52,471 nt of DNA from contig JANTGJ010000008.1 of NCBI GenBank assembly GCA_024762975.1, forward strand, positions 1-52,471, written 5' to 3'. Under the pieces are notes generated by a model. It ran no database searches. It was not told the origin of the DNA and saw nothing but the letters and a program-made list of their open reading frames with translations. The position numbers and the translations under genes are program-made. This document shows, in pieces, positions 45,281 to 48,682 of this stretch. The stretch comes from Candidatus Krumholzibacteriia bacterium. GTDB taxonomy: Bacteria; Krumholzibacteriota; Krumholzibacteriia; LZORAL124-64-63. How positions within the stretch are numbered: position 1 is the first letter of the stretch; each line of letters opens with the position of its first letter.

Positions 45281-46945
45281 ATGTACAGAACGTTGCTGTG
45301 GATGTTGACGATTGTAGTCCTGTCGGGCGGCGGGATTGCCGCAGCCGAAACCACGCTGGTCTGGTCCGACCTGTTGGACGGGGGAGGGTCAGCGACGGAC
45401 AATGGCCGACTGGCGGTTTTTGCTCCGGACGGCGACCTGATCGTGGGTGGCGAAACGACGGAGCGACTCGGCGGTTCCGCGTTTTTCATCCGCAAGGTCG
45501 ATCACACCGACGGCGGTCAGATCTGGTCGCAACGCATGCCGGCGCCCGACGGCTCGGATATGTTTGTCACCGGCCTGGAACTCGATGGCGACGGTGACGT
45601 GATCGTCGGCGGCTACGTCGGCGGTTGCGGCGGCACCTGAGGCCACGGAGACGATATCGTCGTCGTGAAGCTCGACGGCGTGACCGGGGAGGTTCTCTGG
45701 TCTTCGGGTTACGAAAGCGTGGAAGGTGTTTCCGAGTCGGTATACGATATGGTTCTGGACGCGGCGGGCAACGCCTATATCACCGGCCGCGCATTGATCG
45801 CGCCGAACGGTTTCCAGTTCATCACCATCAAGTTCTCCGCGGCCAGTGGCGCCATCCTGTGGATGGATACCCGCGGCGGTACGGATCTGCGCGACGATGT
45901 CGCCTGGAGCATCGTACTGGATAGCGACGGCCACCCGGTGGTCACCGGTATGTACGGATTGGCCGATGGAAGCGCCGACTACTATACCGCCAAATTGAAC
46001 GCGTCGAACGGCGATCTGATCTGGGACCGTCAGGAACCCGGAGCGGTGAACAATCAAGCCGAAGCCGGTTGGCTGGTCGCTTTGCCCGGCGGGGATGTTG
46101 TGATGTGCAATCGCACCTGGACGGCGACCACGAGCTACGATGTGGTGTTGCGCCGCTACGCAGCGTCCGACGGTGCCACCGTGTGGCAACGGCAGTGGGG
46201 CTCGGGCGGCTCGACGGCGGACGATCCGCGCGGCATGGCGCTGGCCGCCGACGGCAGTCCGCTGGTCTGTGGCGTCACCGCGGGCGACTATCTCGTCCTC
46301 AAGCTGGACCCCGCCGACGGAACGACCGACTGGTGGACGTCCTACGACGGCCCTCCGGGCTGGTACGACGTGGCCAATGTCGTGGGTCCCGGACCCGGCG
46401 GCAGTGTTCTCGTCTCGGGCTACAGCAGCGGCCAGACTACGGGTTGGGATGTGGCGACCTGCGCTCTGGATCCGGACACCGGCGATGAATTGTGGGTGCA
46501 GCGATTCGATGCCGGTCTGGGCTACACCGACGAGGCCTACGGATTGGCGTACAGCACCACGGGGGAGGTGGCGGTCGTCGGCTACGGCTATGGCGCAAGT
46601 ACGAACAACGATCTGCTGACGTTGCTGTACCAGGTGGATCTGGCCACACCGGTGGGCGATCTGCCCGCCAGGGCCCTGGACCTGAGCGCTTACCCGAATC
46701 CCTTCAACCCGAGTGTCGAGTTCCGCTTCGAGGTGCAACACGGCGCCGCCCTGCAGCTGTCGATCTATGATGGACGGGGGCACCTGGTATCCGTCCTGCA
46801 TGACGGATACGCTGCAGCCGGACCGCTGATCGCCCGCTGGGATGGACGCGATGCCGCAGGCCGCGGCGTACCTTCGGGTGTCTACCTGGCCCGACTGACC
46901 GGGCGCGACGTACACGCGTTGCGCAAGGTGGTGCTGGCCAAGTAG
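45281..46945 (+). CDS. Secreted beta-propeller protein, candidate selenoprotein (in-frame TGA at codon 120)
   Basis: 554 codons if TGA 45638-45640 is read as selenocysteine. Signal peptide (MYRTLLWMLTIVVLSGGGIAAAE), then propeller blades of the type 'D...GNAYITGRA...FITIKFSAASGAILW', each ending in a hydrophobic strand and W; a 'YPNPFNPSVEF' FlgD/Por-type C-terminal domain (about 478-554) marks it as exported. TGA lies in frame between ...GGYVGGCGGT and GHGDDIVVVKLDG; the upstream and downstream frames are the same, and the first blade would be broken if translation stopped there. Cys116 precedes Sec120 (CxxxU); Cys276 in VMCNRT is also conserved. GGGGGAGCGAG precedes ATG 45281. A paralogue follows with TGA at the same place. 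Confidence 0.85.
45644..45667 (+). promoter_or_regulatory. Hairpin A immediately after the TGA of propeller gene 1
   Basis: CACG-GA-GACG-AUAU-CGUC-GU-CGUG: about nine pairs with one internal mismatch, starting 4 nt after TGA. A bacterial SECIS sits at this sort of distance, but the loop lacks the GGU of E. coli elements. Confidence 0.5.
45682..45702 (+). promoter_or_regulatory. Hairpin B with GGU loop, candidate SECIS of gene 1
   Basis: GACC-GGGGA-GGU-UCUCU-GGUC: nine consecutive pairs closing on a GGU loop, the loop word of E. coli SECIS. The loop is 50 nt past TGA, further than the usual 16-37 nt. In gene 2 the loop-closing pair A-U becomes C-G. Confidence 0.45.
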
Positions 46946-46967
46946 GGCCGGCCGCGCGATTGGATCT

Positions 46968-46992
46968 GGGCCGCCTCCGGAGGGGGCGGCCC
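46968..46992 (+). terminator. Terminator-like hairpin between the propeller genes
   Basis: GGGCCGCC (46968-46975) pairs with GGCGGCCC (46985-46992), then GCTTTT. Likely partial terminator; the short T-run could allow read-through to the second gene. Confidence 0.7.
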
Positions 46993-47014
46993 GCTTTTCG
47001 AAAAGAGATACGAC

Positions 47015-48682
47015 TTGAGACTCCGCGCCCTGCCGTACTTCCTCGTGTTTTGTGCTGTCTTGTTTTCCGCTGTCGGCGGTTTCGCGGCGATCGAGTTCGC
47101 CTGGTCCGATCGCCTGGATGGCGGGGGATCGCTTGCCGACCACGGTCGTGTGGTGATTCTGGATCCGTCCGGAAATCCGATTGTCGGTGGAGAAACGACC
47201 GAGCGGATCGGCGGAGCCGCCATCTTCGTGCGCAAGATGGACCGCCTGAGCGGCGAGCAGATCTGGGCCCACCGCATCCCCGCCTATGATGGCTCGGACA
47301 TGTCCGTGCGGAGAATGGAGCTGGATCCTTCCGGCAATGTGATGGTCAGCGGCTACATCGCCGGTTGCGGCACCTGAGGCCACGGGGATGACGTCGTCGT
47401 GTTGAAACTCGACGGCGCGACCGGGGCGGTGCTCTGGTCTTCGGGCTACGCGAATCCTTTTGGCCTGGACGAGTCGGCGCACGCGCTGGCGGTGGACGAT
47501 CTAGGCAATGCCTTCATTACCGGTCGTGGTCATGTGCTGATGCATCGTATGCAGATTCTGACGGCGAAATTCGCCGCCGAGGACGGCCGCATGATGTGGA
47601 TGGTTACGCGCGGAGACGAGCAGTTCTGGGATGATACGTCCTGGGATATCGTGCTGCCTGCCGACGGTCATCCGGTCATCACCGGCACCTACGCCACCAG
47701 CGATACCACGGCGGATTTCTACACCGCCCAGTTGGATTCGGCCGACGGGTCGACCCGGTGGGAACAGCGGGTTCCCGGAGCCGTGATCGAAGAGGCGGAG
47801 GCCGGATGGCTCAGGATCCTGCCCGGTGGAGATCTGGTCATGTGCAATCGCACCCACGATGGATCGGACGGAATCGATATCGTGCTGCATCGATACCGCG
47901 CGTCCGATGGAGCCGTCGTCTGGTCGACCACGTGGGGCTCGGCCCCGGGAGTGGACGATGATCCGCGAGGATTGATTTTGAGCTCCGCAGGGGAACCGGT
48001 CGTGTTCGGCCGAAGGGCCCAGGATGCACTGGCGCTGAAATTTGATCCGGCCACCGGACAGTTGCTGTGGCAGGCCGATTTCGACGGACCGGCCCAGGGC
48101 GAGGATGAATTCAGCTGTGCGATGACCGACCCGGAGGGCCGCCTCCTGCTGGCCGGAGTCACAGCGCACGAGACCACACGCCTCGATGCCCTGCTGACGG
48201 AATTGGATCCCGTATCGGGCGAGGTCGTTTGGTTCACGAATTGGGACGGTGGGAATGCACTGGACGACGAAGCACGCGATCTGACGGCCAATGTCCAGGG
48301 ACAGGTGTTCCTGACCGGCACCGGATTTGCGCCGGACACGGCCGCGGATCTGTTGACGATCGCCTTCCAGGATATAGGGACTACGTCCACTCCGGCCGCA
48401 CCGGCAAGCCAGCTGCAGCTGAGCGCCTATCCCAATCCGTTCAATCCGCGGGTACGACTGAGTTTCGAGATGCCTGCGGGAGGGGACGCCGTCCTGTCGA
48501 TTCTCGACGCGCGTGGCCGCCGAGTGGCCCTGTTGCACTCCGGTCCGGTACCGTCCGGGAACTTCGTCGGATACTGGAATGGCCGGGACGAGGCAGGCCG
48601 CCCTCTCGGTGCGGGACGGTATCTCGCGCATCTGCAATACGCGGGTACCTCGGTTTCGAGAAAACTGCTGCTCTTGAAATGA
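47015..48682 (+). CDS. Second secreted beta-propeller protein, candidate selenoprotein (in-frame TGA at codon 121)
   Basis: 555 codons with TGA 47375-47377 read through. Signal peptide (LRALPYFLVFCAVLFSAVGGFA), blades as in the preceding gene, and a terminal 'YPNPFNPRVRLSF' domain. Sequence is clearly homologous along the whole length, so it is a tandem duplicate. TGA lies between ...SGYIAGCGT and GHGDDVVVLKLDG: Cys118-Gly-Thr-Sec121 is a CxxU motif, as in thioredoxin-like selenoproteins. Cys277 in VMCNRT aligns with Cys276 of gene 1. Start TTG 47015 (weak ribosome site AAAAGAGAT) is the only start that includes the signal peptide. It has its own terminator. Confidence 0.83.
47381..47401 (+). 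promoter_or_regulatory. Hairpin A immediately after the TGA of propeller gene 2
   Basis: CACG-GG-GAU-GAC-GUC-GU-CGUG: a hairpin of about the same shape and position as in gene 1, shifted by one codon on its 3' side. Partly a result of the GUC repeats. Confidence 0.42.
47419..47439 (+). promoter_or_regulatory. Hairpin B with GGU loop, candidate SECIS of gene 2
   Basis: GACC-GGGGC-GGU-GCUCU-GGUC: same fold and same offset from TGA as gene 1, with C-G replacing A-U next to the GGU loop. The coding sequence is under protein constraint too, so the covariation is suggestive only. Confidence 0.45.

Follow-up and report, generated by a model that had tools for sequence, protein, structure and literature searches.

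The published model of the bacterial SECIS element (bSECISearch) is a hairpin within the coding sequence downstream of UGA, with an apical loop of 3–9 nt that has G in its first two positions, an upper stem of 4–16 bp, an MFE at or below −7.5 kcal/mol, and 16–37 nt between UGA and the apical loop; some elements depart from this model (PMC13188914). Nearly all selenoproteins have Cys-containing homologues, and the methods that detect Cys/Sec pairs need such homologues (described in PMC13188914). Among catalogued selenoproteins, the TonB-dependent receptor of the FCYXU motif-type (NF049945) and other outer-membrane or cytochrome selenoproteins (PMC13188914, Table 1) resemble the family described here in being proteins of the cell envelope or outer membrane, and the TonB-dependent receptor is, like this family, listed with CxxU. 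Unlike the family, however, the outer-membrane selenoproteins of that table are beta-barrels or multihaem cytochromes, and we found no sequence match between them and the family. By profile, the family belongs with the PQQ_2/BamB-like and SBBP propellers (PF13360, PF06739; LipL53 family, NF047494). The non-Sec propellers of this kind that we checked, all weaker matches, lack the C-x-x-U loop of the family and carry neither Cys nor Sec in the corresponding loop, save for one weak CEGC (L139). In fold, the best PDB matches to our predicted model are CylK, a Friedel-Crafts alkylating enzyme (PDB 7RON), and quinoprotein (PQQ-dependent) dehydrogenases (e.g., 1KV9), but with TM-scores of about 0.5, 15–24% identity and no Sec, the likeness is one of fold only. 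With respect to the PQQ-dependent dehydrogenases, only the generic repeat PF13360 scores above cut-off, and the family-level NCBIfam models fall far below it.

Here, we analyse two tandem genes in a 52,471-nt stretch of DNA from a Krumholzibacteriota genome (the window). Translated with TGA read as U (Sec), they comprise the following features.

45281..46945, + strand: gene 1, probably secreted beta-propeller selenoprotein, 554 aa; Sec is residue 120
45638..45640, + strand: Sec-TGA of gene 1, codon 120; the same column is TGA in 29/29 homologues
47015..48682, + strand: gene 2, paralogous beta-propeller selenoprotein, 555 aa; Sec is residue 121
47375..47377, + strand: Sec-TGA of gene 2, codon 121

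Each gene has one internal stop, the Sec-TGA, which lies in the common context GGC ACC TGA GGC CAC GG and is followed by about 434 open codons. A Cys precedes the TGA; the spacing is CxxxU in gene 1, where the residues are CGGTU, and CxxU in gene 2, where they are CGTU. These points had been made in an earlier, sequence-only reading of the locus, which put the open frame at more than 430 codons, and both sequence and translation agree with it. Gene 2 starts with TTG and terminates at a TGA that is a true stop (48680–48682); thus, UGA serves as both Sec and stop within one gene, in line with the claim that UGA is also a normal stop here. The ORFs listed downstream of the two TGAs start with GTG (45665 and 47399), and on inspection of the sequence neither is preceded by a ribosome-binding site, again as had been noted. 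It had further been argued that two independent errors at the same codon are unlikely. The TGA is indeed shared, but the supposed independence does not hold: the genes are tandem paralogues, 48% identical, so the common TGA is one inherited feature rather than two independent events. The real test therefore lies outside the window, in 27 homologues that without exception have the same TGA. Assembly error as the source of the TGA is answered, indirectly, by its presence in 28 separately assembled genomes. Two tandem copies are seen only in the window's own genome, and one copy in all other searched genomes.

In total, the family counts 29 genes from 28 genomes in three phyla; of the homologues outside the window, 24 are from Krumholzibacteriota and the remaining 3 from two other phyla. 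The initial set (f1) held 22 full-length or near-full-length genes, including the two of the window; a phylum-wide search added four (f3), a search of 387 relatives added two genes in other phyla (G177 and G144), and G391 was found subsequently (its locus also occurs as L052 in a public genome set). G144 is the sole carrier in its phylum, among 5 genomes searched. Every one of the 29 genes has exactly one in-frame TGA; it occupies a single shared codon position, G-C-x-x(x)-U-x-x-G-D-D surrounds it, and the frame is open on both sides over ~550 codons. C116 and U120, within G-C-x-G-U-G-x-G-D-D, are the sole Cys or Sec columns that never vary among the 22 aligned sequences; L094 and L129 show the variant CxxxU-D-H-G-D-D, and the CxxxU spacing recurs in gene 1. 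Downstream of the TGA, dN/dS for close pairs is 0.158 (L023/L024), 0.113 (L025/L026), 0.115 (L030/L031) and 0.282 (L036/L040), distant members having been left out because their pairwise values are saturated. Values of 0.11–0.28 after the TGA imply purifying selection on a translated protein.

The sequence-only reading had proposed to see whether this column holds TGA or Cys in homologues. It holds TGA throughout, with no Trp or random residue, but the Cys-containing homologues that would be expected did not turn up; searches covering part of the bacteria returned no full-length homologue with Cys or any sense codon in the Sec column. A Cys form may exist outside the genomes searched. One propeller from an unrelated phylum (L139:1-999, G103:C37) contains GCEGCEDYDLD and is a possible Cys analogue. 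As a Cys homologue it was rejected, at 54.6 bits and with no relatives in its phylum. Also rejected as a family member was L072, a weaker, generic propeller of 28% identity whose loop, GGGNGDDVVVVKLD, has no C-x-x-U and neither Cys nor Sec at the site.

It had also been proposed to look for the Sec machinery, and all of it is encoded in the host genome (G000; 3.8 Mb, 96% complete, with the window as contig C8). Matches to selA (454.7 bits) and selB (318 bits) are above cut-off, selD scores 358.7 bits, and a tRNA-Sec with anticodon UCA scores 68.4 bits. The selD gene has one in-frame TGA of its own (L010:1528-1530, contig C59) in the context KSAGU-AAK, the known Sec site of SelD; the hairpin after this TGA, examined once, showed no clear SECIS. 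Across the phylum, selA is present in 78 of 80 Krumholzibacteriota genomes, the exceptions being G013 and G035. The latter has a family selenoprotein gene despite the lack of a selA match, and since this genome is 92% complete, the assembly may simply lack the gene.

In the family genes, the region after the TGA is under constraint at the RNA level. Excess synonymous conservation, scored in 9-codon windows over the codon alignment, is highest gene-wide at U+10 to U+23 (0.39 versus a mean of 0.056, sd 0.071). RNAalifold, run with 27 and then 29 sequences, predicts two abutting hairpins, located in the window as follows.

45657..45681, + strand: SECIS region hairpin 1 of gene 1, about 9 bp with a 7-nt loop; covariation; MFE −12.1 kcal/mol
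45682..45702, + strand: SECIS region hairpin 2 of gene 1, 9 bp with apical loop GGU; covariation; MFE −11.5 kcal/mol
47394..47418, + strand: SECIS region hairpin 1 of gene 2, weaker; MFE −7.8 kcal/mol
47419..47439, + strand: SECIS region hairpin 2 of gene 2, loop GGU; MFE −13.0 kcal/mol, with C-G in place of the loop-closing A-U pair

Across the 29 genes, 89.3% of cells are paired for the 18 proposed pairs. Seven pairs are changed on both sides, versus 3.4 ± 1.1 in shuffles that keep shared ancestry, and the counts are thus not of independent events; the covariation score is 0.246, versus 0.139 ± 0.010 in shuffles, with shared ancestry likewise not removed. When the pairing is slid by 1–3 columns, every measure falls. 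A compensatory G-C to C-G swap is seen in six genes, and in L095 all 9 bp of hairpin 1 are rebuilt. Synonymous-codon resampling, which preserves the protein sequences, yields 342.7 ± 8.2 formed pairs (maximum 367), compared to 467 of 522 in the actual genes. Predicted MFE is only modestly lower than that of the resamples (mean z of −1.6) and weak in some genes. Single-sequence folding of the TGA region gives z of about −0.3 to −0.7, the element being visible only in the multi-species alignment. Rfam contains no relevant match for it. In an RNA-model search of 80 genomes, the family genes score at least 67.8 bits and the remaining matches at most 27 bits; no further selenoprotein gene with the element turned up among these genomes, and the four weak matches inspected do not start with TGA.

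The two hairpins differ in their degree of constraint. Hairpin 2 is paired in 96.0% of cells versus 82.5% for hairpin 1, its G[G/U]U loop is kept in 29/29 genes, and the published loop rule describes it in every gene but describes hairpin 1 in only 13/29. With an MFE of −11.1 to −13.0 kcal/mol in the four genes folded, hairpin 2 resembles the bSECIS consensus in loop and in lying below −7.5 kcal/mol. It departs from the consensus in position, as its loop lies 50 nt from UGA in 25 genes and 53 nt in the other 4 (which have one extra codon ahead of hairpin 1), as opposed to 16–37 nt, and a second covarying hairpin stands between. Hairpin 1 begins 16 nt past UGA and spans 25 nt; if this helix is left uncounted, the distance from UGA to loop 2 becomes ~25 nt. 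From these data we infer that SelB binds hairpin 2, with hairpin 1 acting as a spacer helix, a bipartite SECIS model to which we give somewhat better than even odds.

In the gene 1 protein, Pfam models identify PQQ_2 repeats and, at the C-terminus, a FlgD_ig domain. No NCBIfam model reaches cut-off, the sub-cut-off matches being to LipL53-type SBBP propellers and type-IX tails only, and a PDB sequence search returns resemblance to WD40 repeats only. The AlphaFold2 model of this protein (mean pLDDT 83.9, pTM 0.74) has about 32 propeller strands, a count that would correspond to 8 blades, with an N-terminal strand predicted to close the propeller. In the model, U120 falls in loop 115–125, between strands 107–114 and 126–131 of blade 2, and this would be the B-C loop by the usual A–D strand naming. 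In propeller enzymes, B-C loops are usually on the active-site face. An N-terminal hydrophobic stretch, which resembles a signal peptide, and the C-terminal tail suggest that the protein is probably exported, and either retained at the cell surface or released from it.

We estimate a probability of roughly 0.93 that the UGA of both genes encodes Sec. The best explanation of the locus is a pair of full-length selenoproteins with a proposed tandem-hairpin SECIS and a probable secreted redox role. The protein would consist of a signal-peptide-like stretch, a predicted 8-bladed propeller of the PQQ_2/SBBP type and a FlgD-Ig or type-IX-like tail. UGA 120/121 would be decoded as Sec by SelB and Sec-tRNA(UCA), with SelB probably binding the G[G/U]U loop of hairpin 2 and the abutting hairpin 1 shortening the path from UGA to that loop from 50 nt to about 25 nt. 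Selenium would then sit in the inter-strand loop of blade 2, beside the invariant Cys (CxxU or CxxxU). Such a Cys-Sec pair, in an exposed loop, most likely forms a reversible selenenylsulfide, and the likeliest function of the protein would be that of a secreted redox enzyme or an electron carrier. Because gene neighbours are not conserved, a redox role can be read only from the CxxU motif and the usual function of Sec, and we consider it fairly likely. That the family combines this bipartite SECIS (G[G/U]U loop 50–53 nt off, spacer hairpin) with the lack of any known Cys form, Sec apparently having been gained in a new CxxU loop and not in place of a Cys, seems to us only a little more probable than not.

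The proposal of a candidate selenoprotein family is strongly supported by the Sec machinery, the uniform TGA, downstream purifying selection, covarying RNA and occurrence in other phyla. Could the TGA nevertheless be a real stop, with the 3′ parts as gene remnants, or with regulated termination that yields chiefly an exported fragment of 119 residues? UGA does act as a normal stop here, and the downstream parts could be remnants or unexpressed. Moreover, because termination and Sec insertion compete, a share of truncated product is to be expected in any case. Yet a single TGA and no other internal stop over ~550 codons in 29/29 genes, together with purifying selection that continues past the TGA, are hard to reconcile with this scenario. 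The product would also end within blade 2 of the model, short of about six blades and the tail, in line with the earlier contention that stopping at this codon would destroy a blade and remove the export domain. We therefore regard a real stop as very improbable. Scarcely credible is a reassigned or suppressor tRNA that would read UGA as Trp, as Cys or as some other amino acid. The frame would likewise stay open, but TGA occurs once per gene, in one column, invariant Trp columns are TGG (table 11), and gene 2 stops at TGA. In addition, tRNA-Sec(UCA) and a TGA-containing selD are present, and covarying hairpins would not be needed.

If Sec is correct, which hairpin SelB binds is a separate matter. 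Hairpin 1 could itself be the SelB-bound SECIS, with hairpin 2 acting in stalling, enhancement or the like: its loop, about 25–28 nt from UGA, falls inside the published spacing, and the hairpin covaries, L095 being the clearest case. On the other hand, it is weak in several genes, its loop agrees with the 3–9 nt and G rule in fewer than half of them, and hairpin 2 is far more constrained and follows the rule without exception. This makes SelB binding at hairpin 1 unlikely, and SelB binding at hairpin 2 the assignment we prefer. As for the chemistry, redox is the commonest role of CxxU, and no consistent metal-handling neighbours are seen, both of which speak against metal or metalloid binding (of Hg, As or Cu, say) at the site in place of thiol redox chemistry. 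Such binding, which we deem unlikely, would accord with the acidic GDD after Sec and with the several catalogued CxxU/UxxC selenoproteins that are tied to metals or metalloids (PMC13188914).

This is a real selenoprotein family, with an unusual SECIS, that is absent from the lists checked. No beta-propeller selenoprotein appears in the catalogues of 2022 (PMC9312934), 2025 (deep-Sep additions; PMC12013277) or 2026 (119 families; PMC13188914), and the terms 'propeller', 'PQQ' and 'quinoprotein' have 0 occurrences in the last, which agrees with the initial impression that secreted propellers with Sec were not a known family. A literature search on selenocysteine or selenoproteins in Krumholzibacteria, with preprints (bioRxiv) and most subscription papers outside its scope, returned nothing relevant; it is possible that the family has been reported elsewhere. 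With this family, the known prokaryotic selenoproteins gain a propeller scaffold that is probably exported. Its SECIS would be missed by the published spacing rule, and methods built on Cys/Sec pairs need Cys homologues, which were not found, so that genes of this kind may escape notice. Standard gene calling would also cut each gene in two at the TGA. Finally, the family offers a testable case for the reach of SelB, and for whether helices between UGA and SECIS count as distance.

No gene neighbour is conserved family-wide, cytochromes and M14 carboxypeptidases being found at some loci only. A c554/c7-type cytochrome lies divergently just upstream at several loci, of which four were scanned (L058:4115-4648, L060:143-673, L061:262-804 and L063:1547-2080, all on the − strand). 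A secreted M14 zinc carboxypeptidase with a FlgD_ig tail is upstream at three others (L052:1148-3406, L065:3074-4924 and L070:1919-4357), one of them in another phylum. In the window, the neighbours are a divergent amidohydrolase and a convergent acyl-CoA dehydrogenase. A 697-codon ORF (45389–47482, − strand) runs antisense to both genes, and antisense ORFs recur at homologous loci; these look like a by-product of codon composition.
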